In this document: piece by piece, positions 28,188-43,313 of the stretch | How positions within the stretch are numbered: position 1 is the first letter of the stretch | Layout of the letters: every line of letters starts with the position of its first letter | Assembly (NCBI GenBank): GCA_946554445.1 | Contig: CAMNSD010000002.1 | Coordinates: 124,001 to 188,000 of the forward strand | DNA length: 64,000 bases | DNA from: an uncultured Lachnospiraceae bacterium | GTDB lineage: Bacteria > Bacillota > Clostridia > Lachnospirales > Lachnospiraceae | Reading direction: 5' to 3' | Translations under genes and position numbers: made by a program | Notes under the pieces: generated by a model | What the model was told of the DNA's origin: nothing | Databases searched by the model: none | The model's input: the letters and a program-made list of their open reading frames with translations, nothing else

Positions 28188-29237
28188 TTAGTTGTAATAC
28201 CTTAAAATCTCTGTCTGCACGATCTCTTCTGACAAAGCATGCATCCCGTCCAGCCGTTCTTCATAGTTTTCCAGGGTAAGTTTTCCTTCACCCCTTGCCA
28301 GTTTTTCATAAACCTGTTGATTAATATCTTTGGAAAAATGAATCATATCCATGTAATTGTCCAGATTGATAATGGTTTCTTTATCATCTTGATAGAAATA
28401 TACTTCCACATTATCATAGGCAAGTAATGCCTTGACAGCCTGTTTTTCATTATAGATTACGGCATCTCGTTCGCCGGTCCGGTAGGCGTTATCCCACCAG
28501 AGCATGGAATAGGGGGAGAAGAAAAATTTGAAGGTGGTTTCCGGGTGTGCCTCTACCTGTGAGGTAAGGAGTGCAATATTCCCCTGGAGGGCATCGGCGT
28601 TGGCGGTTTCGGGCTGCATTTCTTTAATAACCGGCAGGCGGCCGTAAAGTCCTGTTGCCAGATCGGCTCCAAAATATTTCCACTGTGCCCAGTTGTAGGA
28701 ATTGCCCTCATCGTAATCACCGGTAAAGGAGTAGGCCAGCATATAAGGAAGTTTTTCCATCAGGACATCTTTATTCAATACATAGTGATAATCGTTTAAC
28801 GGGTTTGTGTCATACAGATACATGGGACATCCGGTAGATTCATAGGTGGGGGTGGTATCTGCGGACAGGGAGGAAGGATCAATATTATAAAAAATATAAT
28901 CCAGATCGTGGTCTTCATATGCCACATCCAGCAGATAGCAGAGATCGGCCGTAGCGCCATAGGAGCGGATTGCCTTAATGGTGGTACAGTCGAAACCCTG
29001 ATCAAACCAGCCGTTATTATAATTTTCACAGACAGAGGATCCCACGATGAGCGCATTGTAATCAAAATTGCGCAGGGTGCCTACACATTGGTATTCTTTG
29101 TCGGTCAACACAGCTTTTAGACCAGGCAGCGGTTTGTGGTAGTGGTAGAAGGGATCAAAAATAACCACTGCCGCAATGATTACTGCCAGGAGGATTAGGG
29201 TTCTTATGAAAAAGGATTTGATGAATTTTTGTTCCAT
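28188..29237 (-). CDS. SGNH-like membrane-anchored protein, partner of the MBOAT acyltransferase
   Basis: The 349-residue protein has a single N-terminal membrane helix (residues ~10-28) followed by an extracytoplasmic domain. LIVGSSVCENY resembles the GxS block of the DltD/AlgX/PatB-like SGNH superfamily, and an Asp/His pair near the end (YMDMIHFS) fits the second catalytic block. These proteins transfer acyl groups delivered by MBOAT membrane proteins, and an MBOAT gene lies 233 bp upstream on the same strand. The start at 29237 has GAGG eight bases upstream; the longer frames start inside the repeat block. Exact acceptor unknown. Confidence 0.75.
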   Translation of the reverse strand: MEQKFIKSFFIRTLILLAVIIAAVVIFDPFYHYHKPLPGLKAVLTDKEYQCVGTLRNFDYNALIVGSSVCENYNNGWFDQGFDCTTIKAIRSYGATADLCYLLDVAYEDHDLDYIFYNIDPSSLSADTTPTYESTGCPMYLYDTNPLNDYHYVLNKDVLMEKLPYMLAYSFTGDYDEGNSYNWAQWKYFGADLATGLYGRLPVIKEMQPETANADALQGNIALLTSQVEAHPETTFKFFFSPYSMLWWDNAYRTGERDAVIYNEKQAVKALLAYDNVEVYFYQDDKETIINLDNYMDMIHFSKDINQQVYEKLARGEGKLTLENYEERLDGMHALSEEIVQTEILRYYN

Positions 29238-29242
29238 ATAAG

Positions 29243-29442
29243 TTTCCTCGCTTCCGGGCGTTCGCCCTATTAAAGCGTAATGCCGCAAAGCAGTCTGCAG
29301 CACAACAGTCTGCCGCAGTGCAGTCTGTAGCACAACAGTCTGCCGCAGTGCAAGCTCGAAAACCTGCGGTTTCCTCGCTTCCGGGCGTTCGCCCTATTAA
29401 AACTGTCATGGACAAAACCGTCTGCAAGCAGCCGTTTTGTCC
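29243..29442. repeat. Palindromic and tandem repeat block between SGNH-like and MBOAT genes
   Basis: A 32-base unit (TTTCCTCGCTTCCGGGCGTT and continuing to TTAAA) occurs identically at 29243-29274 and 29370-29401, each with an internal GGGCG-TT-CGCCC hairpin. Between them a 30-base unit is tandemly repeated twice with one mismatch (29292-29321, 29322-29351), preceded by a partial unit from 29281. A further inverted repeat GGACAAAAC/GTTTTGTCC spans 29410-29442. The whole gap between the two genes is thus repeat, and short frames through it are artefacts. Confidence 0.85.
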
Positions 29443-29470: not shown

Positions 29471-31015
29471 TCAAAAGTTGAAATACAAAAAGGTGCTTAC
29501 TTGTGATAGGGAGATGATGCACCATAGGAAGAGGATGCAGATTCCCCAGCACTTTGTGGAGGTCAGTTCGTTATTGGTTGCCCGGTCATAGGCGTTTCTT
29601 CGGAAGATCAGGAAGAAGGCCAGTGCAAATAATATAAACATAAAGATTAAATATATATAGGTTACAGCGCCTGGCGCAAGGATATCCAGGGCTTGTCTGA
29701 TTACATAAATTTCAGAAATGTCAAGCTGCGCGGCGACTTCGTATATTTTACCGGTATAGCTGCCTGAGAATAGGTTTTTAAACAGCTGTAATGCGCCCAA
29801 CATACTCTCACTTCGGAAGAAGAAAAGGGAGAGGTTAAAGAGCGTAAAGGTAAAGATCCAGCCAAGCCATGGAGGAATATGAAAACGGGAAGGGCGTTTT
29901 TCTTCCCGGCCCTGTATGCCGATGACGCCCAGATTATCCCAGACCACCAGAAGTCCCTGCATGGCGCCCCAGGCTACGTAAGTCCAGGCGGCCCCATGCC
30001 ATAGGCCGCTCAGCAGGAAAATGATAAACGTATTGATCAGCATACGGGTTTTACCCCTTCTGCTTCCTCCCAGAGGAATATAGACATAGGTGATGAAAAA
30101 GCGTGACAGGGTGATATGCCAGCGCTGCCAAAATTCCTTAATGCTGCAGGAACGGTAAGGCGAATTAAAATTGACGGGCAGTTCAATATGGAACATTCTG
30201 CCCAGTCCAATAGCCATATCGGAATATCCGCTGAAATCAAAATATAATTCAAAAGAATAAGCCAGGATTACAAATATGGTAGAGACGCTGTCCAGGGAAA
30301 AAGTCTGTGCAAATCCATAATTGGCCATCAGGCCGAAAGTATCTGCCAACAATACCTTTTTGGCAAGGCCTAATACAAAAAGATAAATACCCCTGGCAAA
30401 GAAGGAAGCATCGAACCGGCGTCTGGATGTATCCTCAAACTGGGGGATCATTTCCTTATAGAGTACGATAGGGCCGGCAATCAGCTGTGGGAAAAAGGTG
30501 ACAAAGGTCAGGTAATTGAGAAAGCTGTAATGTTCGCACCTGCCCAGAGCCCGGTCTATGATAAAGGATAGTTGTTGAAAAGTAAAGAAACTAATACCTA
30601 AAGGCAGTAGGATATGCTTTAGGTTAAAGTCCGTATGGAAAGCCAGATTTATGTTTTCAATAAAAAAGTCATAGTATTTAAAATAGAATAAAATGCCTAG
30701 ATTTAAAACAATGCCGATCACAAGGCCAAGGCGATTTAAAGGGGAAAGACCTGTCTTGCCGTCTGTCAAAGTCTCCCTTTGTTGGCGTTTGGCGGCTGGG
30801 ATTTTAGTCAGCAGATAACTCAATGCATAGTTCATGCCAATACTGCACAGGATGATGGCCAGATAACTGACATTAAAATAGCCGTAAAACCATAAAGACA
30901 TACCGGCCAGAAAGAGGCTGGCCAGCTTATAATGTCCATATCGGTTAAGTCCGTACCATCCGATCAGCGCGATGGGCAGAAAGATGAAGATAAAAATATA
31001 AGAATTAAATAACAT
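29471..31015 (-). CDS. MBOAT family membrane-bound O-acyltransferase (AlgI/DltB/PatA-like)
   Basis: A 514-residue protein with about eleven membrane helices. It contains the MBOAT core: the PIALIGWYGLNR start, PLGISFFTFQQLSFI, YFDFSGYSDMAIGLGRMF, WHITLSRFF..YVYIPLGGSR and the invariant catalytic His in LLSGLWHGAAWTYVAWG. Such proteins move acetyl or other acyl groups across the membrane to modify surface polysaccharides or teichoic acids. The SGNH-like gene downstream is the expected transferase partner. A promoter with -35 TTGTAA and -10 TATACT is at 31098-31126. Confidence 0.94.
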   Translation of the reverse strand: MLFNSYIFIFIFLPIALIGWYGLNRYGHYKLASLFLAGMSLWFYGYFNVSYLAIILCSIGMNYALSYLLTKIPAAKRQQRETLTDGKTGLSPLNRLGLVIGIVLNLGILFYFKYYDFFIENINLAFHTDFNLKHILLPLGISFFTFQQLSFIIDRALGRCEHYSFLNYLTFVTFFPQLIAGPIVLYKEMIPQFEDTSRRRFDASFFARGIYLFVLGLAKKVLLADTFGLMANYGFAQTFSLDSVSTIFVILAYSFELYFDFSGYSDMAIGLGRMFHIELPVNFNSPYRSCSIKEFWQRWHITLSRFFITYVYIPLGGSRRGKTRMLINTFIIFLLSGLWHGAAWTYVAWGAMQGLLVVWDNLGVIGIQGREEKRPSRFHIPPWLGWIFTFTLFNLSLFFFRSESMLGALQLFKNLFSGSYTGKIYEVAAQLDISEIYVIRQALDILAPGAVTYIYLIFMFILFALAFFLIFRRNAYDRATNNELTSTKCWGICILFLWCIISLSQVSTFLYFNF

Positions 31016-32015: not shown

Positions 32016-33074
32016 ATGAATGGACTTATTCAGATTTCGAAGTATGCAGGTATGAGAAACGATCTGGCGCAGGCAGGAGGCGGTAATACCTCTGTCAAGT
32101 TGGACGACCACGTTATGCTGGTTAAAAGTTCAGGCTGCCAGTTGGCTGATGTAAGCAGGGAAAGCGGCTGCACGAAGGTAAATTACCGTATCATCTTAGA
32201 CTATTTTGAAAATAATACAGCAGATGTGCTGACGGAAGAAGAAGGAAAAAATCTTCTTGTACAGGCACAGATGGAGGAAGGACATGCGTCCATTGAGACC
32301 TTTTTACATGCGATAACGGGGAAGTATACGTTACATTCTCACCCCATGCTTGTAAATGTACTGACGTCCAGGAAAGACGGCAGGAAGGAACTCCAAAAAC
32401 TTTTTCCGGAATCTGTATGGGTATCTTACCAGAAACCGGGCGCGGCATTGGCAGAGGCCTGTTACAGAGCGTGTAAGGAACAGGGGACGCCGGGAAATGA
32501 GCAAGAGATAATTTTCTTGGAAAATCACGGTCTTGTGGTCAGCGCGAATACGCCGGAACGGGTGATAGATAAGACGGAAGAAGTTCTGAAAAAGATTGCA
32601 AATCATCTACATATTTCTTATCGGATTTATTCCTCTGCGACCAGAATATGGGATATGTTTCTGCGGATTCCAGAGTTGCAGGATATGATTGTATATACCT
32701 CGCAGAGCCGGTATCTTTCGTGGGAGTACATAGGAGAATCCCTGGTGGGAGCGAAGCGGTGGAATCATGCTTTCTGTCCGGACTGCGTAGTTTATGGCGC
32801 CAAGAAGATGTTGTGTCTATGCGATGATTTCAGCCGTCGGGATATCGTGGATTTTATGGATAAATATGGCGCACCGGTAATCATCTGTTACCGCAGACAT
32901 ATTTATATTGCAGCGGAAAGTGTAAAAAAGGCGCAGGAGATAGAGAATGTGATGAGTTTCGGCGCGCAGGTCCAGGTAGAGAATCTTGGGAAAAAGATGA
33001 ATTACCTGAGTGACAGTCAGCAGGAGGAACTGCTAAACTGGGATAGTGAGAAATACCGCAGAATGATGAAATAG
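32016..33074 (+). CDS. Class II aldolase/adducin family protein (RhaD-type module)
   Basis: A 352-residue protein with the class II aldolase fold: GGGNTSVKL phosphate-binding loop, SIETFLHA (catalytic Glu), LHSHP (two zinc His) and ENHGLVV (third zinc His). It is longer than single-domain fuculose-1-phosphate aldolases and resembles the aldolase half of bifunctional rhamnulose-phosphate aldolase/dehydrogenase proteins without the dehydrogenase. A strong AGGAGAA site precedes the ATG. The following gene starts eleven bases after its stop. In this cluster it more likely builds or trims a sugar-phosphate precursor of a surface headgroup than serves sugar catabolism; that is inference. Confidence 0.85.
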   Translation: MNGLIQISKYAGMRNDLAQAGGGNTSVKLDDHVMLVKSSGCQLADVSRESGCTKVNYRIILDYFENNTADVLTEEEGKNLLVQAQMEEGHASIETFLHAITGKYTLHSHPMLVNVLTSRKDGRKELQKLFPESVWVSYQKPGAALAEACYRACKEQGTPGNEQEIIFLENHGLVVSANTPERVIDKTEEVLKKIANHLHISYRIYSSATRIWDMFLRIPELQDMIVYTSQSRYLSWEYIGESLVGAKRWNHAFCPDCVVYGAKKMLCLCDDFSRRDIVDFMDKYGAPVIICYRRHIYIAAESVKKAQEIENVMSFGAQVQVENLGKKMNYLSDSQQEELLNWDSEKYRRMMK

Positions 33075-33085
33075 GAGAGATGAGT

Positions 33086-34732
33086 ATGTATGTTATCATT
33101 CCGATGACGGGTTATGGTTCCCGTTTTGTGGCGGCCGGTTATAAAGAGTTAAAACCATTTATACCGATTATGGAAACGCCGATTATAGAGTGGATTGTAA
33201 AGAGGATGTATCCGGCAGATACAGATTTTATCTTTGTGTGTCGGGGAGAACACCTGTCGGAGGATCCCGCTATGCGGGAGCGGCTTATGGCGCTTGCACC
33301 TGCGGCAAAGATCGTGGCGATTGAGAATTGGGTTAAGAAAGGGCCGGTCTATGATGTGCTCCGGGCATATCGGGAATTGAAAGATTCAGACCAGATTGAC
33401 GTTAATGCATCCTGTATCATCAATTACTGCGATTTTTATATGACTTGGGATTTTCAGGGGTTTGCAGATATGGCTAAGGAGAGGAACTGTGACGGCAGCG
33501 TGCCCTGCTATACAGGCTTTCATCCCAATCTGTTACCGCAGAAAAATTATTATGCGTCCTGTCTGACAGATGAAGAGGATAATCTGATTGAAATCCGGGA
33601 GAAGTATTCTTTTGAAGAGGATAAAACAAAAGCCAAACATTCTCCGGGTGTGTATTATTTTAAAAATGGCGGTATCATGGAGAAATACTGTCAGATTCTG
33701 ACAGAACATGAGGAATGTGCCATAAACGGCGAGTTTTACGCTAGTCTGCCCTATAACTTTATGGTACGGGATGGCCTGAAAGTGTGGGTGCCGACTAACG
33801 TGGAGTATTTTTGCCAGTGGGGGACACCGGAGGATATGGGGGAATTTGTGTATTGGACGGATTTGATCCGCCAAACTGCAGGCGGCAGTCTGGTACAGGA
33901 CCAGGCGGAACAAGAGACGGTATCCGCTGGCAAAGTGCTGATACCGATGGCGGGCGCCGGACAGCGGTTTGCGCAGGCAGGGTATACAGTACATAAACCG
34001 GCCATTATGACCATAGACCGGAAAGATGGAATAGAAAAACCTATGGTGGTCTGTGCAACGAAGGATTTACCAGGCGTCTGGCAGGACGGCGGTAATGTGA
34101 TCTATGTGGATCGGACGTTTCATAGGGAAGACGGCGTGGAGGATGCTGTCAGACAGTATTATCCGAAGGCGCAGTTTATCACCATCGACCATCTGACACA
34201 AGGGCAGGCCTGTACCTGTATGCTGGCGGAAGCGTATCTTGATCCGGAAGAACCGCTTCTGATTGCAGGCTGCGATAATGGGATGGATATTGACACGGAA
34301 GCGTTTCAGAGTCTGACACAAGAGTGCGACTGTATCGTATTTACCTATCGGCACAATGAAGCAGTTCTGGCTAATCCCAATGCCTATGGCTGGATGATTG
34401 CTGACAATCAGGGAAATATTACGGGGACCTCCATCAAAAAGGCAATCTCTGATACGCCGATGGAAGATCCGGCGGTGGTTGCCACTTTCTGGTTCAAGAA
34501 ATCCAGGATTTTTCTGGAAGCTACGGCCAAAATGATTGAAGAAGATGACAGGATCAACGGCGAATTTTATGTGGATCAGACAGTAAAACATGTGTTGGAT
34601 CTAGGATATCGGGCGAAAATTTTTGATATTGACCGTTATGTAGGCTGGGGCACTCCGGCGGATTACGAGGGTTATCAACAGACATATACATATTTTGAGG
34701 ATTTCCTTAAGAGAGAAAGTCTGGTAAGATAG
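33086..34732 (+). CDS. Tandem two-domain sugar/polyol nucleotidyltransferase
   Basis: The 548-residue protein consists of two GT-A-fold NTP transferase domains in one chain. The first opens with IIPMTGYGSRFVAAGYKELKP, the second at about residue 284 with LIPMAGAGQRFAQAGYTVHKP; both keep the GxGxRF nucleotide loop and the Lys-Pro after it. The second domain also retains a metal-binding ..GCDNGMD.. motif. The ATG at 33086 has AGGAG eight bases upstream, better than the ATG at 33080, which is only two bases away. It probably activates a phosphorylated sugar or polyol made by its neighbours to an NDP derivative. Whether both halves are catalytic is unclear. Confidence 0.85.
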   Translation: MYVIIPMTGYGSRFVAAGYKELKPFIPIMETPIIEWIVKRMYPADTDFIFVCRGEHLSEDPAMRERLMALAPAAKIVAIENWVKKGPVYDVLRAYRELKDSDQIDVNASCIINYCDFYMTWDFQGFADMAKERNCDGSVPCYTGFHPNLLPQKNYYASCLTDEEDNLIEIREKYSFEEDKTKAKHSPGVYYFKNGGIMEKYCQILTEHEECAINGEFYASLPYNFMVRDGLKVWVPTNVEYFCQWGTPEDMGEFVYWTDLIRQTAGGSLVQDQAEQETVSAGKVLIPMAGAGQRFAQAGYTVHKPAIMTIDRKDGIEKPMVVCATKDLPGVWQDGGNVIYVDRTFHREDGVEDAVRQYYPKAQFITIDHLTQGQACTCMLAEAYLDPEEPLLIAGCDNGMDIDTEAFQSLTQECDCIVFTYRHNEAVLANPNAYGWMIADNQGNITGTSIKKAISDTPMEDPAVVATFWFKKSRIFLEATAKMIEEDDRINGEFYVDQTVKHVLDLGYRAKIFDIDRYVGWGTPADYEGYQQTYTYFEDFLKRESLVR

Positions 34733-34767
34733 AAGATAGACACAAAAGAAAGGCGCTGGTCTGTCTG

Positions 34768-36873
34768 ATGTTACAAAAATTACATGCGCTTGATATGGAG
34801 AAGAACTATCAAAAATATTTGAAGGCTGCCATTATCGTGGGAGTCTTATTCAAGTTATGCCTGATGGGATTATTTTCTTCTGATTATCAGAATCTGATGT
34901 TCATTCCTTTTGTGAAGTGCTTCTTAAGCGGGGAAAACCCTTATCAGTTTTATTATGACCATCAATTGTTATCTTCCTTTCCCTATCCGCCGGTCATGTT
35001 GTTTGTGGAGTGTATCGGTGGCGTTTTTATCACACTTTTTGCAGGAATGCCTGTCTTTTGGCAGAATCTGGTCTTTAAACTGCCGATTCTATTGATGGAT
35101 CTGCTGGGATTGTATTATTTGATGCAGATTTTTAAAGATAAAAGAAAATATATTCTGGTACTGTATTTCCTCTCACCGATCATCCTATATGCTTCTTATA
35201 TGCATGGACAGCTGGATATTATTCCGACGATATTTTTAGTAGGAGCGGTCTATTATCTGGCGGAGACGAATATTATGGCGGAGAGGGGTTTTTCCGGCGA
35301 GTGGAAATTTATGGTGTTTCTCGCGCTTGCGCTTGCATCTAAGTTTCACATTGCAGCGGTGCTTCCCTTGTTTTTCCTGTACATATATAAAAGAAAAGGA
35401 TACCGAAAAGCCGTCGTTATGACGGGACTGCCTGTCCTGGCTACGGTGGCCGTTGTACTGCCGTTTTGGGGGAGCGGTTTTGTCAATATGGTGCTGCTTA
35501 ACAAAGAACAGCAGGCCATCGACAGTGTTTATCTTGATTATGGCAACGCGCATCTGCTGCTTTCTGTATTGGTGCTGCTGTTTATTTACTTTCAAGCCTT
35601 TCAGGTCAACCAGATGAACCGGGATTTATTGATCAGTATGACGGGACTGCTCTTCTCAGTCTTTCTTGCGTTTGTGCCTGCTATGCCGGCATGGTTTGTC
35701 TGGATCGTACCGTTTGTCATGATGTATCTGGCGGGGCTTTCTGAGAACCGGGGCAAGATGGTGCTGGTTTACGGTGTGTTTAACCTGTTGTATCTGTTGT
35801 ATTATGTATGTTTTCATAAGACGCAATTTGTGGATTTATATTTTCTTGATAAAGATTTAAACTGCCTGAAACTATCGGATACTGCATTAAAGAATATTGT
35901 ATTTACGCTGATGGTCGGAGTTTTCCTGATTTTGGTAGTCGGCATGTATCTGTATGGTGTCAATAGCAATTCCTATTACCGTAGGCGAAACCGTCCCTTT
36001 ACCATCGGTATTGCGGGGGACAGTGGTGCGGGCAAGAGCAGACTGCTTATCATGTTGAAAGAACTTTTATCTGAGGATCATATCTTGTGTGTGGAAGGGG
36101 ACGGTGACCATAAGTGGGAGCGCGGTAGCGATAATTGGAAAGAGATGACGCATTTGAATCCTCAGGCGAATCATCTCTATCGGCAGGCGGAGGATCTACA
36201 GGTATTGCGCGGGAATAATGCGGTCAGAAGGGCGGATTACGATCATGAAACTGGGACTTTTACCAATAAGAGACGAGTAGCGCCCAAGCCATATATTGTT
36301 ATGTGCGGTCTTCACTCCCTGTATCTGCCACAGATGCGGCAGGCTTTGGATATGAAGATTTTTCTGGATACAGATGAAAATCTCAGATGTTATTGGAAAC
36401 TGGAAAGAGATCGGGGCAGCAGAGGACATGACAGAGCAGCCGTTATGGAGCAGATCGAGGCCCGCCGGGAGGATGCCAAACGCTACATTTATCCGCAGAG
36501 ACAATACGCTGATTTGGTAATCCGTTATTTTGATCCGCTGTTGCCGAAGGAAAATCCACCAGAAGGGTATCAAGCCTCTTTTGGGGTGGAATTTCTGATA
36601 GATATAGAAATTAATGTGGAACCGATGCTGGCAATTTTGCGGGACCAAGGTGTGCCTGGCACACTGACTTATGACGATCTTCTGCACCAGAAGATACTAT
36701 TTAGGAACGAAGACCTGAATGTAAATAGGGAGTTTTGGGAGACTGCAGCTTGCAGCGCAATTCCGCAGATTGAGGATCTGACGGGCGGACATATGGTTTG
36801 GGAAGACGGTGTAAACGGCGTGGTGCAGCTGATGCTCTTGATGGTGATAGGCGAGATCATGAAAAAGGACTAA
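34768..36873 (+). CDS. Fusion of GT87-like membrane glycosyltransferase and uridine-kinase-like P-loop kinase
   Basis: The 701-residue protein has two parts. Residues 1-400 carry about ten to twelve membrane helices, with the NPYQFYY..SSFPYPPVM pattern seen in DUF2029/GT87 polyprenol-dependent glycosyltransferases. Residues 408-701 are a soluble kinase of the uridine kinase/phosphoribulokinase class: Walker A GIAGDSGAGKS with Lys423, then a DGDHKWERGS segment and an RDRGSRGHD lid-like stretch. The fusion links phosphorylation of a small molecule to a membrane transferase. The ribosome binding site is weak (AAAGG, 14 bases away). Neither acceptor nor substrate is recognisable from sequence. 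Confidence 0.78.
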   Translation: MLQKLHALDMEKNYQKYLKAAIIVGVLFKLCLMGLFSSDYQNLMFIPFVKCFLSGENPYQFYYDHQLLSSFPYPPVMLFVECIGGVFITLFAGMPVFWQNLVFKLPILLMDLLGLYYLMQIFKDKRKYILVLYFLSPIILYASYMHGQLDIIPTIFLVGAVYYLAETNIMAERGFSGEWKFMVFLALALASKFHIAAVLPLFFLYIYKRKGYRKAVVMTGLPVLATVAVVLPFWGSGFVNMVLLNKEQQAIDSVYLDYGNAHLLLSVLVLLFIYFQAFQVNQMNRDLLISMTGLLFSVFLAFVPAMPAWFVWIVPFVMMYLAGLSENRGKMVLVYGVFNLLYLLYYVCFHKTQFVDLYFLDKDLNCLKLSDTALKNIVFTLMVGVFLILVVGMYLYGVNSNSYYRRRNRPFTIGIAGDSGAGKSRLLIMLKELLSEDHILCVEGDGDHKWERGSDNWKEMTHLNPQANHLYRQAEDLQVLRGNNAVRRADYDHETGTFTNKRRVAPKPYIVMCGLHSLYLPQMRQALDMKIFLDTDENLRCYWKLERDRGSRGHDRAAVMEQIEARREDAKRYIYPQRQYADLVIRYFDPLLPKENPPEGYQASFGVEFLIDIEINVEPMLAILRDQGVPGTLTYDDLLHQKILFRNEDLNVNREFWETAACSAIPQIEDLTGGHMVWEDGVNGVVQLMLLMVIGEIMKKD

Positions 36874-36882
36874 AGAAGGGAG

Positions 36883-36901
36883 ATACAACAAATTGTTGTA
36901 T
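36883..36901. promoter_or_regulatory. Perfect palindrome between the ribosome binding site and the HAD gene start
   Basis: ATACAACAAATTGTTGTAT has nine-base arms around one base. It separates GAAGGGAG (36875-36882) from the ATG at 36909, which is otherwise too far (26 bases). If the arms pair in mRNA, the Shine-Dalgarno would be brought to a normal distance. Confidence 0.5.
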
Positions 36902-36908
36902 ATCAAAT

Positions 36909-37616
36909 ATGATAAAAGCAGTAATCTTTGATTTGGATGATACTTTATATGATTATAAAACCTTGGACAAAGAAGCCGGGAGCAGAGTGAGAAGTCTTGT
37001 TTGTAAGCGTTTGGAAGTCAGTGAAGAAAGATATGAAAAGGCTTTTATACGTGGACGGCAGGTGACCAAGGAGCGCCTGGATGATACGGGCGCATCGCAC
37101 AACAGAATGTTGTATTTTCAAAAGACGCTGGAATATTTGGATTGTAAACCCCTGCCTTTATGTTTGCAGATGTATGAGACTTACTGGGGCACTTTTCTGA
37201 CAAAGATGAAACTGTATCCGGGAGTCCGAGGGCTTTTGGATAAATTGCATGCGAAGGGCATTAAAGTCGCAATCTGCACGGATCTGACGGCGCATATCCA
37301 GCACCGCAAGTTAGAAACATTGGGACTCGTGGATGATGTTGACTGTCTGGTGACCAGTGAGGAAGCCGGACATGATAAACCGTCGCCGGAGGTTTTTGCG
37401 TTATGTCTGGAGAAACTGGGGATGAAACCGGATGAAGTCTGCTTTGTGGGGGACGATTACAGGCGGGACGTGATGGGGGCAGTGGCGGCAGGGATACCCG
37501 CAGTCTGGTTTCGTCCGGCGAATGAGCCAGGAGATGAGGATAGCAGCGTAGATTATAAGGTGGTAAGGGATTATAGACAGCTGGAAGAACTGTTGATTAC
37601 AGGAGAGAGATTATGA
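36909..37616 (+). CDS. HAD family hydrolase (phosphatase)
   Basis: A 235-residue HAD phosphatase with motif I FDLDDTLYDY (nucleophile Asp8, acid Asp10), motif II near VAICTDLTA, the Lys region around GHDKPSPEVFALCLEKLG, and motif IV VGDDYRRDVMGAVAAG. It likely dephosphorylates an intermediate of the surface-glycan cluster it sits in. Longer in-frame starts lie inside the fused kinase gene, whereas 36909 begins at the domain. Its stop overlaps the next gene by four bases (ATGA). Confidence 0.9.
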   Translation: MIKAVIFDLDDTLYDYKTLDKEAGSRVRSLVCKRLEVSEERYEKAFIRGRQVTKERLDDTGASHNRMLYFQKTLEYLDCKPLPLCLQMYETYWGTFLTKMKLYPGVRGLLDKLHAKGIKVAICTDLTAHIQHRKLETLGLVDDVDCLVTSEEAGHDKPSPEVFALCLEKLGMKPDEVCFVGDDYRRDVMGAVAAGIPAVWFRPANEPGDEDSSVDYKVVRDYRQLEELLITGERL

Positions 37617-38329
37617 GAAGTGGAAAAAGTTTGAAACTTTCAATTGTTGTGCCATGTTATAATGAGGAGGAAAACATTCCGCTTATTTTAGGGCGGTTTC
37701 AGGAAGTAATAGGTCGGGAGGACATAGAAGTCATCCTGGTCAACAACGGTTCCACGGATAACAGCGCGCAGGTGCTGGAAGAATTATTGCCCCAATATCC
37801 GTTTGCAAAGACTACACTGGTGGAGGTAAACCAGGGATATGGTTACGGTATCTTACAGGGACTGCATATGTGTCAGGGTGAGTATATCGGCTGGACACAT
37901 GCGGATATGCAGACGGATCCGGCGGATATTATAAAGGCGCTGGATATTATCGAGGGGGAGAAGGGACTAGTATTTGTCAAAGGCAATCGGAAAGGCCGCC
38001 CATTATTTGACGTGTTTTTCACGGTGGGGATGAGTCTGTTTGAGACTTGTTATCTGCATAAGAAATTATATGATATCAACGCGCAGCCCAATATTTTTCC
38101 AAAAGTATTTTTTGACGGCTGGGAGGAGCCGCCCCATGATTTTTCTCTGGATTTATATGCCTTGTACATGGCGCGCAAAAAGGGACTTAAGGTAGTCCGA
38201 TTCCCGGTGCTTTTTCCGGAAAGGATTCACGGGGAATCCAAGTGGAATACGGGGCTTAAGGCCAAGTGGAAGTTTATTAAACGGACCATTGATTTCAGCG
38301 TAAAGTTAAAGAAGAGCGGAAAGTTATAA
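37613..38329 (+). CDS. Family 2 glycosyltransferase
   Basis: A 238-residue GT2 enzyme without membrane helices: LSIVVPCYNEEENIPLIL (nucleotide-binding start), VNNGSTDNS, QGYGYGILQGL and the HADMQTDP metal-binding block place it near dolichol/polyprenyl-phosphate sugar transferases. It could load a polyprenyl phosphate with sugar for the GT-C-like membrane proteins of this cluster. The ATG overlaps the preceding stop, indicating coupling with the HAD gene. Confidence 0.9.
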   Translation: MRSGKSLKLSIVVPCYNEEENIPLILGRFQEVIGREDIEVILVNNGSTDNSAQVLEELLPQYPFAKTTLVEVNQGYGYGILQGLHMCQGEYIGWTHADMQTDPADIIKALDIIEGEKGLVFVKGNRKGRPLFDVFFTVGMSLFETCYLHKKLYDINAQPNIFPKVFFDGWEEPPHDFSLDLYALYMARKKGLKVVRFPVLFPERIHGESKWNTGLKAKWKFIKRTIDFSVKLKKSGKL

Positions 38330-38411
38330 GGATGGATTTATCTGTCAACAAATTTGGCGAGTAGTAGAGATATCGAAACAGGGAAAGATGCCTGTATAAA
38401 TGGAGGAAGAG

Positions 38412-39005
38412 ATGGAATACATAGCGCACAGGGTAAACACGGTAGAAGAACTTCGCAAACTGCCAGCAGAGTATGGCGTGGAATTGGATTTAAGAGATGA
38501 TTTAAATGGCAGGATCTATATTTCCCATAATCCTTTTGAAGCGGGTGAGGACTTTGAGGATTACTGTAAAGAGTATCATCATGGGACCATGATCTTAAAT
38601 ATCAAGAGTGAGCGGATTGAGCATAAAGTACTTGCGTATATGGAGCAGTATCATATCGAGAAATACTTTTTCCTGGACTCTTCTTTTCCGATGATCAAGC
38701 TGTTGACAGATATGGGAGTAAAGCAAGTGGCGCTCCGCTTCAGCGAATTGGAAGGTCTCGACACCATCCGTAATATGGCGGGCAAAGCCGAATGGGTATG
38801 GGTGGACTGTTTTACGAAAGTGCCCATCGACCAGGAGAGTTTCCAGGAGTTAAAATCACTTGGCTATAAGTTATGTTTTGTATCCCCGGAGTTAGAAGCG
38901 CAGGAGGAAAAGCTGCCTTTATATAAACAGTATCTGAAAGAGCAAGGCATTGTGTTTGATGCAGTTTGTACCAAAAGTTATCATATTAAGGATTGGATGG
39001 AATGA
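38412..39005 (+). CDS. GDPD/PI-PLC-fold phosphodiesterase-like protein
   Basis: A 197-residue protein with the TIM-barrel start of glycerophosphodiester phosphodiesterases: IAHRVNT (first His/Arg pair), YGVELDLRDD (metal-binding Glu/Asp) and ISHNPFE (second His), followed by strand-helix repeats. It is shorter than classical GDPDs and has no signal peptide. GGAGG five bases before the ATG at 38412 decides this start over 38400. In the cluster it might cleave a glycerophosphodiester precursor or bind it; activity is not assured. Confidence 0.72.
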   Translation: MEYIAHRVNTVEELRKLPAEYGVELDLRDDLNGRIYISHNPFEAGEDFEDYCKEYHHGTMILNIKSERIEHKVLAYMEQYHIEKYFFLDSSFPMIKLLTDMGVKQVALRFSELEGLDTIRNMAGKAEWVWVDCFTKVPIDQESFQELKSLGYKLCFVSPELEAQEEKLPLYKQYLKEQGIVFDAVCTKSYHIKDWME

Positions 39006-40618
39006 TGAGAACGAAAATACGGGAAAGAGCCGGTATGGCGGCAGCGATAGCGGGCACGCTTCTTGTGGGCATACTTTTATTTTACAGGCATTGGCAGTTT
39101 GAATTGCCATTATATCCGAATGTGGATGAAATGTTATCACTGCAGAATATTTATGACCTGTTAGGCCAGCATCTTTATACAGGAGATATTTATGTGCTGG
39201 ACTTTTTCCGTTACCCGCATTTGACGTTCTATTATGCGGCGGTGGGAGCCAGGATTTTAGGCAAATTCTTATCTGGGGTGGACACGGTGGTGCTTCTGCG
39301 CTACGTTGTCTGCGGCACGGCGCTTTTGTCGAATATCTGTATTTATTTCACCGTTAAGATTATGACGGGAGACCGCAGGTGGGGTTACATGGGATTCCTG
39401 CTGTCTGTTTTTTCTCTGTACGGTTATGCTTATCTGTATTATACGGGACCAGATACGCTTTTGTATGCAGTGGCAAATGTGCTGCTGTTACTCGGTTGCG
39501 TTATTTATCAGGATCAGAATGAGGAGCGGGTGGTATATCTGTGGTATCCGCTGATGGCAATCTGTATTGGGTTGGCGATGGCGGCCAAGTACCATGGGAT
39601 CGTGTTTGGCATTTTTTGGCTGGCATTACATATTCGGAAAAAGTATTGGAAGAGCCATCGTAATAATTATTTGTTCTTTATGGACTGTATTGTGCTGGCG
39701 TTGGTGTTCTGCCTGTGCAATTATTCTCTGTTCTTTCATTTCAAAACATTCATCGGGGACAACCTCTATAATCTAAACCACTATGCCTGGGGACATCCGG
39801 GAATTGAACATAATCTGCCGTTTCTGGGGTATCTGGAAGCCTTTGGATTTACAAATTATGGCGTGGTGGGCGGAATACTGTTGTTTATTGGAATCGCATA
39901 TCTGATTCGCCAAAAAGACTGGGGGCAGCTAGTGGTATTTTTATTGATGCCGGTCTGTATCCTGTTCCTTTTATCAAAGTATCAGATTGTGCTGGGCAGG
40001 AATATGTCTTTGGTACTTCCGTTTGCCTTTCTTTTTATGACTTATGGGTTGATGGAAGTGGAGAGAGTTTTAGACGCGCGTCTTTTCCAAGGGAAAAGGA
40101 TGAAGAACAAATTTACGGCAGCAGGTATTGTAATGAGTGCAGTGGCGCTGATGGTTCTATGCAATGCGGCAGTCGTGTGCAACAATTACCGTTATGATTT
40201 AACTTATACCCAGGCAGCGGCAGGTATTGCAGACCTGATCCCGGAAGGAGCCAAGGTCTACTGTACTTCTTATATGCCAGTGATGGATGCAGACAAATAT
40301 GAGATAATTGATATCGGGGAGGATATCTCATTGCTCCCGGATCGGCTTGCACCGGGGGAGTATTATATTGATGTGCAATATGCCACAGGCTATTTTGCCC
40401 AACGGAAAGATTATCTTGTCTGTCGGGGAAAGGCTATGTATCCGGACAAAAAAGCGTCATATGAAGAAAAAATAAGCGGATATGCGGTAGCAAAAAACTA
40501 TCCGGGCATTTCCTACGGCGGAGAGTGGAAATATCGGATTGGGTATTTGGATATGTTTCGGTACTCGCCGGGAAAATATTATGTAGGGCCCAGTATTATT
40601 GTTTATGCGGGAGAGTAG
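39002..40618 (+). CDS. GT-C-fold membrane glycosyltransferase (ArnT/PMT-like)
   Basis: The 538-residue protein has about twelve helices, an early extracytoplasmic loop with acidic residues (LYPNVDEMLSLQNI, matching the catalytic Asp/Glu loop of GT-C enzymes) and a periplasm-like C-terminal domain from ~residue 400. This is the layout of RgtA/ArnT/PMT-type polyprenyl-phosphate-sugar transferases. The ATG at 39002 overlaps the stop of the previous gene (ATGA) and has AAGGA nine bases upstream. It is the last gene of the cluster and could attach the finished headgroup outside the cell. Confidence 0.8.
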   Translation: MMRTKIRERAGMAAAIAGTLLVGILLFYRHWQFELPLYPNVDEMLSLQNIYDLLGQHLYTGDIYVLDFFRYPHLTFYYAAVGARILGKFLSGVDTVVLLRYVVCGTALLSNICIYFTVKIMTGDRRWGYMGFLLSVFSLYGYAYLYYTGPDTLLYAVANVLLLLGCVIYQDQNEERVVYLWYPLMAICIGLAMAAKYHGIVFGIFWLALHIRKKYWKSHRNNYLFFMDCIVLALVFCLCNYSLFFHFKTFIGDNLYNLNHYAWGHPGIEHNLPFLGYLEAFGFTNYGVVGGILLFIGIAYLIRQKDWGQLVVFLLMPVCILFLLSKYQIVLGRNMSLVLPFAFLFMTYGLMEVERVLDARLFQGKRMKNKFTAAGIVMSAVALMVLCNAAVVCNNYRYDLTYTQAAAGIADLIPEGAKVYCTSYMPVMDADKYEIIDIGEDISLLPDRLAPGEYYIDVQYATGYFAQRKDYLVCRGKAMYPDKKASYEEKISGYAVAKNYPGISYGGEWKYRIGYLDMFRYSPGKYYVGPSIIVYAGE

Positions 40619-41031: not shown

Positions 41032-41733
41032 TCATGTCAGAAATTCTTTTAATAAAAGTTCCAGTTCCTCGGCTTCCGATGGGGTAAAAGCCGGGGAATT
41101 TTGCGTTTGTTTTTCCTTGTTTTCTGAGAGAATCGCATCGGGCAGTTTCATAGATTCTTTTTCCCCCATAGATTTTTCAGAAGTGTCAGGCTGAATCATA
41201 CGCATATCCAATTGTGTCTGTTCTAGGCGGCTTGCCAGATGATTTTCCAGATAATCGATTAAGTTTGTCCGCAGGATCTTTATTTTCCCGGGAATATCCA
41301 CCAGAGAAGATATCGCAAAGTAACAATATAATCCCAGGAAGCTGATCAGGTAAAAAGGCGCAATCTGAAAAAAGTCCTCGTCATGAATAATACCCTGGCA
41401 GGCGCCGATACCCGCCACGAGTACGGCCAGAAGCGTGAGCTGCCCGGATACATGTTTTAAGAAAGATAAAGGCAGCCGGCCCACGCTGATCTGGTTAATA
41501 AACTTGTCCACAAAAACGGATACGTTTGGAACGGTCTCATGAAGCTGGCGGCAGCTTGTAAATTTCAATTTAAGTTTTTGCAAAGATCTGTTTGTCGTGG
41601 CTGACATATTTTCCGTCTCCCAGATCAGCTTATGGTATATCACTCCCATCACAATCTGGCATATGATACTAAGTAAGAGCAGGATTAGGATTGTGACCAT
41701 GTAATTTTTGTGTCGGAAAAAGAGTGCAAACAT
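41032..41733 (-). CDS. Membrane protein of unknown function
   Basis: The 233-residue protein has an N-terminal helix (residues ~11-35), a cytoplasmic-like segment, two closely spaced helices (LTLLAVLVAGIGACQG and FYLISFLGLYCYFAIS), and a hydrophilic Glu/Ser/Gln-rich C-terminal tail ending in EAEELELLLKEFLT. The ATG at 41733 is chosen over a TTG at 41742, which lies only two bases from AGAGG. I recognise no family; the helix arrangement faintly resembles MotA/ExbB-type proteins, but no signature supports that. Confidence 0.6.
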   Translation of the reverse strand: MFALFFRHKNYMVTILILLLLSIICQIVMGVIYHKLIWETENMSATTNRSLQKLKLKFTSCRQLHETVPNVSVFVDKFINQISVGRLPLSFLKHVSGQLTLLAVLVAGIGACQGIIHDEDFFQIAPFYLISFLGLYCYFAISSLVDIPGKIKILRTNLIDYLENHLASRLEQTQLDMRMIQPDTSEKSMGEKESMKLPDAILSENKEKQTQNSPAFTPSEAEELELLLKEFLT

Positions 41734-41979
41734 ATCGGACAATACCTCTCATCATCATAAAAATATAGTGCATACTTATATTATATTGGAATATACGCAG
41801 GGAAAAAGACATAAGGCATCGACAGATTTCATGCTGTTTTGACGTTTGTGGGAATAAGTTTTGAAAAAGGCATAGACAAGAGTACTGGAAAGTCATAAAA
41901 AACTGTGGTATAGTAAAAACGTTAGGGAAACAGGAATTTATCCAGAAAATTTGGAGAGCATGAATAGGAGGGAGCAGAT

Positions 41980-42222
41980 ATGATTTATCGACCAAAGGGA
42001 GTCTGTTCTAACGCGATAGATATACAGGTAGAAGACGGCGTGATCAAGTCTGTCGAATTTACGGGAGGATGTAACGGAAACACGCAGGGTATTTCACGTT
42101 TGGTTGCCGGGATGAAGGTGGAAGACGCAATTGGCAGACTGAAAGGTATCAAGTGTGGATTTAAGAGTACTTCCTGCCCGGATCAGCTGGCCTGCGCGTT
42201 ACAGGAAATCATAGGTGACTAG
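41980..42222 (+). CDS. TIGR03905 family TSCPD domain protein
   Basis: An 80-residue protein whose ending STSCPDQLACAL is the TSCPD motif, preceded by the FTGGCNGNTQGISRLVAGM block typical of TIGR03905. The same domain occurs at the C-terminus of B12-dependent ribonucleotide reductases; the free-standing form is common in Clostridia, with metal or nucleotide binding suspected but unproven. AGGAGGG precedes the ATG. It lies 14 bases before murG. Confidence 0.92.
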   Translation: MIYRPKGVCSNAIDIQVEDGVIKSVEFTGGCNGNTQGISRLVAGMKVEDAIGRLKGIKCGFKSTSCPDQLACALQEIIGD

Positions 42223-42236
42223 GAGGGTTCTTTCTT

Positions 42237-43313
42237 ATGGGCAGTAAGAAGATTGTACTTACCGGCGGCGGTACTGCCGGACATGTAACCCCGAATATGG
42301 CGTTGATACCCAGACTCAAGGAATTGGATTACGAGATAGTATATATAGGATCGTACGATGGGATTGAGAAAAAACTGATCGAGGATTTTGATATCCCTTA
42401 TTATGGAATTGCAACCGGCAAGTTCAGAAGATATTTTGATCCTAAGAATTTTTCAGATCCCTTTCGGGTGATCAAGGGAATGGGTGAAGCAAGAAAATAT
42501 TTAAAAGAGATCAAACCGGATGTGCTTTTTTCCAAGGGCGGTTTTGTCAGTGTACCTGTGGTACGGGCGGCAAATACTCTGGGGATTCCCTGTATTATTC
42601 ATGAGTCGGATATGACGCCGGGGCTGGCCAATAAGCTGTGTATCCCGGTAGCCAAGAAGGTGTGTTGTAACTTCCCGGAGACATTTAAACTCCTGCCGGC
42701 GACTAAGGCAGTGCTGACAGGTTCCCCGATTCGAAAGGAACTGACCACAGGAAGTAAAGAAGCCGCATATGAACTGTGTGGATTTGATGCATCAAAACCG
42801 GTTATTATGGTGGTGGGCGGAAGCCTCGGTTCCGCCGCGATCAATCAGGCGGTCCGGGATGTGCTGCCGGAACTGTTGAAGGATTTTCAGGTAGTGCATC
42901 TATGTGGGAAAGAAAAGGTAGATAATCTGCTTCTCACTACGCCGGGGTATAAACAGTTTGAATATGTGAAGTCAGAGATGAAGGACATTTTCGCCATGGC
43001 GGATATAGTGATTTCCCGTGCCGGAGCTAATGCGATTAGTGAGATCTTGGCGCTCAAGAAACCAAATATCCTGATTCCACTTTCGGCGGGCAGCAGCAGG
43101 GGTGATCAGATCCAAAATGCCAATTCCTTTGAGTCCCAGGGATTCAGTATCGTGATTGATGAGGACGACCTGACAAACAAACTATTTCTTGAGAAGATAC
43201 AGGAATTGTACTTTAACAGGTTTACCTATATTGACGCCATGAGTAAGAGCAGTCAGAGGGATGCTATCGGAACGATCATCGGGCTGATTGAAGATGAAGT
43301 AAACGCAAAATAA
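42237..43313 (+). CDS. murG: UDP-GlcNAc:lipid I N-acetylglucosaminyltransferase
   Basis: A 358-residue GT28 enzyme that converts lipid I to lipid II on the inner face of the membrane in peptidoglycan synthesis. It shows the N-terminal glycine-rich loop LTGGGTAGHVTPNMAL, the HESDMTPGLANKL segment, the VVGGSLGSAAIN loop of the second Rossmann domain, and SRAGANAISEIL for UDP-GlcNAc binding. AGGAGGG is eight bases before the ATG. It is outside a dcw cluster, as in many Lachnospiraceae where a second MurG-like copy exists elsewhere. Confidence 0.94.
   Translation: MGSKKIVLTGGGTAGHVTPNMALIPRLKELDYEIVYIGSYDGIEKKLIEDFDIPYYGIATGKFRRYFDPKNFSDPFRVIKGMGEARKYLKEIKPDVLFSKGGFVSVPVVRAANTLGIPCIIHESDMTPGLANKLCIPVAKKVCCNFPETFKLLPATKAVLTGSPIRKELTTGSKEAAYELCGFDASKPVIMVVGGSLGSAAINQAVRDVLPELLKDFQVVHLCGKEKVDNLLLTTPGYKQFEYVKSEMKDIFAMADIVISRAGANAISEILALKKPNILIPLSAGSSRGDQIQNANSFESQGFSIVIDEDDLTNKLFLEKIQELYFNRFTYIDAMSKSSQRDAIGTIIGLIEDEVNAK

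Follow-up and report, generated by a model that had tools for sequence, protein, structure and literature searches.

What product does a bacterium make with an aldolase, nucleotidyltransferases, a kinase, a phosphatase, glycosyltransferases and a GDPD-fold barrel encoded side by side? The question is raised by a cluster in an uncultured Lachnospiraceae bacterium (genome G000, 4.39 Mb), where open reading frame (ORF) calling showed seven same-strand (+) ORFs filling positions 32016–40618 of the window, i.e., the 64,000 nucleotides at positions 124001–188000 of contig C2. The closest named relatives of the cluster were mostly Lachnospiraceae bins. Six of the seven genes stay together in distant genomes in differing orders, and their togetherness is therefore beyond chance. 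There is about an even chance, in our judgment, that this six-gene core is a self-contained module making an activated five-carbon sugar unit that is delivered to a cell-surface glycan.

The core comprised, in order: ALD, of the class II (zinc) aldolase family (PF00596; 352 aa, 32016–33074); NTA-NTB, with two nucleotidyltransferase-fold domains (550 aa, 33080–34732; query name NTP2); GTC-PRK, a GT-C membrane transferase (residues ~9–399) fused to a phosphoribulokinase (PRK)-type kinase (~406–700; 701 aa, 34768–36873); a HAD phosphatase (235 aa, 36909–37616, ATG start by homology); GT2, a short glycosyltransferase of the polyprenyl-phosphate-sugar synthase type (238 aa, 37613–38329); and a small TIM barrel of predicted GDPD fold (201 aa, 38400–39005; the inner ATG at 38412 is the start in most homologues). 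The seventh gene, GTC2, is lineage-specific and is treated below with the neighbouring genes. The original prediction had correctly placed seven adjacent genes on one strand. It had also counted three ATGA/stop overlaps, of which two were found, HAD/GT2 (37613–37616) and GDPD/GTC2 (39002–39005). The third was not upheld, because homologues support a HAD start at ATG 36909 and not at TTG 36798, from which the mechanically called ORF overlaps the preceding gene.

Recurrence was measured in 66 loci (44 close and 22 distant) from a genome-collection scan with NTP2 alone, a biased start; L025 and L038 are among those from cultured Lachnospiraceae isolates. By tblastn, the other core parts stayed together with NTP2, each in 60 to 63 of the 66 loci: ALD 60, GT-C half 63, PRK half 63, HAD 60, GT2 61, and GDPD 60. 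With NTP2 taken as one query, all core parts occurred together in 51 of the 66 loci and in 42 of the 47 loci of at least 18 kb. The other 19 loci were shorter than 18 kb, so some genes may lie off the contig. Profiles on ORF calls gave a lower count (41 of 66 loci with all profiles), which is too low because the ORF caller discards overlapping ORFs, and the tblastn count was used. By profile, NTA was found in 63 loci and NTB in 62. Gene order was alike in 47 of the 51 full loci, split and partly inverted in two, and of another kind in two, one of them L068 (bin SI072_bin107). The longer loci short of a part were L029 and L047 (ALD), L049 (GTC-PRK), L058 (HAD), and L059 (GT-C half and GT2). In L034 and L043, ALD and NTP2 lie on one strand and the remaining core genes upstream on the opposite strand. 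In L023 (682–9931), ALD and NTP2 are about 8 kb apart, with unrelated genes between them that look transport- and hydrolase-like as read from sequence; ALD can therefore drift away from the rest of the module.

A second start was provided by scans with the GDPD profile, where a strong match was one at E 1e-40 or better. Strong matches numbered 2 in 398 genomes, one of them the window's own, 7 in 74, 5 in 296, and 1 in 50. Weaker matches in these four sets numbered 1, 2, 3, and 1, and six of these seven, those inspected, lay in other contexts. The GDPD-started search recovered the same module, and homologues of the core genes were not found mainly in unrelated contexts. The gene set is uncommon: the GDPD protein occurred in 3 of the 398 phylum genomes (the window's own included, one match weak), and ALD in 3 of 150 family genomes including the window's own, one of the three in an apparent rhamnose operon.

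L068's genome belongs to a phylum in which 9 of 74 genomes had GDPD matches, seven of them strong. GTC-PRK matches were found in eight of the 74; the six full-length ones all fell within the seven strong-GDPD genomes, and the other two were partial. The seventh strong-GDPD genome carries the variant locus L087. By hand arithmetic, the odds of six of six falling within 7 of 74 are about 4 in 100 million assuming independent genomes, which these are not. HAD matched at E 1e-20 in five of the 74 genomes, four times in the module. All core parts were present in L068, L085, and L086, all but the nucleotidyltransferases in L089 (a 5.4 kb contig), and all but HAD in L088 and L090. For the phylum that includes the genome of a Spirochaetia bin, GDPD matches occurred in 8 of 296 genomes, five of them strong; L109 and L110 were complete modules in further gene orders. 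Incomplete loci were L111 (GDPD and GT2 only), L112 (HAD and GDPD only, in pieces), and L116/L063 (without GTC-PRK and without NTB). The module of the Mucispirillum bin (L066) extends beyond its contig, and the GDPD gene sits at the edge of another contig.

A rival explanation is that unrelated sugar genes merely became adjacent in one Lachnospiraceae lineage, by chance or clade inheritance. In its favour, 44 of the 66 loci were close relatives, and the 38 of these with all core parts shared a single order except L034 and L043. Reshuffled yet clustered modules in L066, L067, L068, L085, L086, L109, and L110 speak against this, as does the GDPD protein in all six genomes of one phylum with full-length GTC-PRK. 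We give the explanation next to no weight; it is refuted for the six core genes and stands for GTC2 and two further neighbours, MBOAT and SGNH.

The kinase domain had been called uridine-kinase-like, an identity that was rejected, since fold and sequence favour PRK. PF00485 covers residues 413–586 of GTC-PRK, and the kinase half has the whole PRK fold including the C-terminal part, as in PDB 6kev, 5b3f, and 9qkp. Aligned to Synechococcus PRK, an Asp, a His, an Arg, and the motif Lys-x-x-Arg-Asp-x-x-x-Arg were invariant in 18 of 18 members; we take these to be the catalytic residues. Phosphoribulokinase is commonly read as a marker of carbon fixation. That role was rejected on finding no RuBisCO large-chain match in 16 of 16 module genomes (completeness is given for G000 alone, 96.1%; one of the 16, G549, is without GTC-PRK on its module contig). 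Because the PRK-type domain sits in a glycan module of organisms without a RuBisCO match, PRK matches alone would mislead metabolic annotation. Fold and catalytic letters are common to this kinase, Calvin-cycle phosphoribulokinase, the Methanospirillum PRK, and the "cyanobacteria specific PRK" (the three structures above), whereas the module's PRK is fused to a membrane GT-C, lies in a glycan cluster, and scores below the PRK07429 cut-off. The genome of L085 (G588) has a second PRK-like domain outside the module (contig C53, 72382–73002; 115 bits), with the kinase part alone matched.

The phosphatase and aldolase identifications were upheld by family matches. HAD matched PF00702 at 103.2 bits, residues D8, D10, T12, K157, D182, and D187 were invariant in 16 of 16 aligned members, and all 16 matched the ribulose 1,5-bisphosphate (RuBP) 5-phosphatase family NF053830 at E 1e-10 or better. 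ALD matched PF00596 at 45.6 bits (cut-off 22.2); it was closest to the aldolase portion of the bifunctional RhaD/YuxG proteins and has no dehydrogenase portion. The best NCBIfam score among the PRK08324/RhaD_aldol-ADH models was 76.6 bits, far under the cut-offs, and TIGR02632 (rhamnulose-1-phosphate aldolase/dehydrogenase) matched residues 4–198 at 59.7 bits, short of its 567.75-bit cut-off. Residues E94, H107, H109, and H171 were invariant in 17 of 17 members and are presumably the aldolase Glu and zinc His triad.

These three enzymes could together run ribulose 5-phosphate to RuBP, to ribulose 1-phosphate, and on to dihydroxyacetone phosphate and glycolaldehyde, a two- or three-carbon product serving as headgroup precursor. 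HAD's best family (RuBP phosphatase) and the retained, presumably catalytic Glu and zinc His of ALD fit such a cleavage. It would amount to a bacterial counterpart of the non-carboxylating pentose bisphosphate pathway of haloarchaea; in 17 halophilic archaea, genes for a HAD RuBP phosphatase and for an aldolase with the annotation FucA share an operon (PMC9700705). A RuBP 5-phosphatase-type HAD adjoins an aldolase in both systems; the module is without any other recurring gene of the haloarchaeal pathway, has an aldolase of another branch, and has glycan genes alongside. All 17 ALD members matched RhaD/YuxG models and few matched FucA models, and ALD is absent from two genomes that retain the other parts. 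Among the 22 distant loci no gene family beyond the core and GtrA recurs in more than four, so a constant reductase or additional enzyme is not seen. We consider cleavage improbable.

The remaining core proteins point to activation and lipid-linked transfer. The double nucleotidyltransferase held up as two domains, on weak matches (PF00483 21.9 bits, cut-off 21.2; PF12804 also weak), with the G-x-G-x-R-F and K-P signatures and an Asp kept in both halves; their joining in one protein, as in the window, is not general, since 17 of the 22 distant loci encode each domain in an ORF of its own. GT2 was supported as the polyprenyl-phosphate type by PF00535 (80.2 bits) and by profile matches: positions 1–224 of its profile matched dolichol-phosphate mannose synthase 5mlz (E 1.8e-17), and ArnC matched as well. 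The membrane half of GTC-PRK is predicted to have the GT-C fold of known lipid-phosphate-sugar transferases; no Pfam GT-C family was among the best 25 of 40 families for 18 members at E 0.5. A GtrA profile, built from the same cluster that it then counted, was found in 13 of 22 distant and 0 of 44 close loci. In L068 GtrA is fused to ALD, and in the window's genome three GtrA genes lie away from the module. GT2, GtrA flippase, and GT-C are the components of Gtr-type three-component glucosylation and of ArnC/ArnT systems. The module has these components and, presumably, lipid-phosphate-sugar donors in common with them, but brings its own sugar-supply and activation genes, and its 238 aa GT2 is without the usual membrane tail.

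The GDPD protein was revealed by its fold alone. Its model is confident (pLDDT 95.1) and the predicted fold is that of a GDPD TIM barrel, bearing out in structure what had been proposed as a GDPD-like barrel. By sequence there was no Pfam match at E 0.01, and the profile run against PDB sequences found no GDPD, with one chance match at E 0.12. Residues H10, E28, D30, and H43 were invariant in 17 of 17 members; we assume that they correspond to GDPD's pair of catalytic His and to the first and second of its acidic metal ligands.

Co-occurrence, families, predicted folds, conserved catalytic residues, and the missing RuBisCO matches were computed; we infer all substrates and the direction of flow. 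The proposed step order, drawn from families and gene company, is the simplest one using GTC-PRK, HAD, one nucleotidyltransferase, and GT2. The PRK half would phosphorylate C1 of a pentulose- or pentose-5-phosphate, HAD would take the 5-phosphate off the resulting 1,5-bisphosphate, and NTA or NTB would convert the remaining sugar phosphate to an NDP-sugar. GT2 would load the sugar onto undecaprenyl phosphate, a GtrA-type protein would flip the lipid-linked sugar, and the GT-C half, often with a second, variable membrane protein, would transfer it outside. ALD might adjust the supply of ketose phosphates, and a second, phosphodiester-linked intermediate might be the business of the GDPD-fold protein and the second nucleotidyltransferase; these assignments are the weakest part. 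A more specific version, possible though doubtful, is that in bacteria without RuBisCO from several phyla a membrane-tethered PRK-type kinase, fused to the transferase that consumes its product outside, makes a hitherto unknown NDP- and undecaprenyl-phosphate-linked pentofuranose or pentulofuranose via a 1,5- (or 2,5-) bisphosphate; this would be the missing route to donors of the pentose or ketose units in surface glycans.

The same logic of C1 kinase, terminal HAD phosphatase, and nucleotidyltransferase is known from the NDP-heptose pathway (GmhA, HldE or HddA, GmhB, HldE or HddC). The module would follow it using different enzymes: a PRK-family kinase, here fused to GT-C, would act on a five-carbon substrate, and no GHMP/PfkB kinase or GmhA-like isomerase was among the family matches of the window proteins.

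Several results weigh against the five-carbon module as proposed. The PRK half reached 184.2 of the 236 bits required by PRK07429, and HAD's best NCBIfam match, NF053830, scored 190.0 bits against a cut-off of 330, with 136.8 for the next (best 25 of 46 families); since both fall below curated cut-offs, their substrates may have drifted. If the product is true ribulose 1-phosphate, its phosphate is not on the anomeric carbon, and NDP-ribulose is for that reason no normal GT2 donor. The whole genomes of L029 and L047, where the other parts are retained, gave no ALD match at E 0.001. HAD is missing at the L058 locus and GTC-PRK at the L049 locus (loci only), and genomes G562 and G567, both with GTC-PRK, gave no HAD match at E 1e-20. 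L063 has NTA without NTB, and no GTC-PRK on its contig. The GDPD protein has Asn (N67) in 17 of 17 members, and in 18 of 18 of a second alignment (two sequences shared), at what we take, by sequence and not superposition, to be the position of the third metal ligand, Glu in GDPD. The proposed order is weak on the anomeric phosphate, on the two genomes that have lost ALD, and on the GDPD protein and second nucleotidyltransferase, whose roles it does not explain. The single pathway first proposed (NDP activation, lipid loading, outside transfer) is still the simplest reading of the set, though with another kinase family and without the seventh gene. Separately, the second half of the NTP2-like ORF of L063 (3158–4051) is not NTB and had no Pfam or NCBIfam match; it reads to us like a transposase-associated nuclease-type protein, and the module may be interrupted there.

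Variant loci bear on the pathway. L087 (4078–14807) keeps NTA, NTB, GDPD, and a GT2-GtrA fusion; ALD, HAD, and PRK are replaced there by a ribulose-phosphate 3-epimerase, which scores above its curated cut-off, and a xylose-isomerase-like barrel. The set is flanked on both sides by zinc dehydrogenases that resemble polyol dehydrogenases, below all cut-offs. A second module kind (L074, L093, L113, L115) combines a related GDPD protein with HAD and one or two nucleotidyltransferases, and a cupin-like protein sits between in L074, L093, and L115. In L074, HAD was nearest beta-phosphoglucomutase models and the cupin scored 20.3 bits (cut-off 27.2); the other loci were read from sequence. The same GDPD Asn occurred in all six second-kind members aligned (L093 lies outside the alignment). 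L114 has GDPD and HAD, and L091 and L092 have GDPD and one nucleotidyltransferase. From L087 and the second module it follows that the pairing of GDPD with nucleotidyltransferase is the broader unit, and loci of the first module kind probably all draw on pentulose phosphates.

A somewhat unlikely alternative, though a stronger one than cleavage, is an open-chain headgroup. The nucleotidyltransferases would activate a terminal phosphate to a CDP-ketose or CDP-polyol (starting from ribulose 1-phosphate in the main module and from a pentitol phosphate in L087), as TarI forms a CDP-polyol for ribitol; the GDPD-fold enzyme would act on a polyol phosphodiester, and GT2 and GT-C would use an ordinary sugar. 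PRK and a RuBP-5-phosphatase-like HAD would yield ribulose 1-phosphate directly, the anomeric problem would be avoided, and the GDPD fold is natural for polyol phosphodiesters. The epimerase and sub-cut-off dehydrogenases of L087, and the company of GDPD, HAD, and nucleotidyltransferases in the second module, fit as well. However, the conserved GT2, GtrA, and GT-C would be left unconnected to the activated product, and no TarI, TarJ, LicD, or CDP-glycerol-transferase family was among the window-protein matches. TarI and TarJ supply CDP-ribitol for teichoic acid; both that route and the module would begin at ribulose 5-phosphate and use a nucleotidyltransferase. A known teichoic acid or capsule pathway was not recognized: across nine window proteins there was neither a TarI/TarJ match nor a capsule-sugar equivalog above its cut-off (for HAD, among the best 25 of 46).

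No description of the six-gene set was found in the open-licence literature searched. If true, the five-carbon route would explain, in a way open to experiment, how certain bacteria activate five-carbon sugars for transfer from a lipid carrier. Since the gene set is compact and found repeatedly in Lachnospiraceae of the gut as well as in several distant groups, reconstituting it biochemically once would annotate many genomes.

Two of these loci have other surroundings of their own. Genes flanking L087 look, as read from sequence, like pseudaminic acid synthesis. One genome has both module kinds in near-alike surroundings (L059, 4818–8833 and 15807–16928; L093, 4426–8405 and 12935–14056), as if one kind were replaceable by the other; by the same kind of reading, the surroundings look like phosphonate genes (PEP mutase-like, phosphonopyruvate decarboxylase-like).

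Three genes of the window were rejected as module parts on their distribution (0, 1, and 0 of 22 distant loci). GTC2 (39002–40618, +; 538 aa from ATG 39002), a second GT-C-like membrane protein that had been counted in the set, matched PMT_2 at 29.5 bits (cut-off 26.1) and had a homologue in 38 of 44 close loci. The MBOAT acyltransferase (29471–31015, −; PF03062, 120.3 bits) was present in 27 of 66 loci, at 34% identity in its single distant one. The adjoining SGNH-like gene (28188–29333, −; no Pfam match at E 0.01) was present in 24 of 66. The suggestion that the MBOAT/SGNH pair acylates the same polymer was accordingly dropped. A promoter scan was near background (27 found, 25.4 expected), terminator-like sites numbered 15 (8.2 expected), and none were used. 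Downstream, at window positions 41032–43313, lie a MurG-type transferase (GT28), which recurred in 32 of the 44 close loci and in none of the 22 distant ones, and a membrane ORF on the opposite strand, which recurred in 37 of the 44; this recurrence is probably plain synteny.

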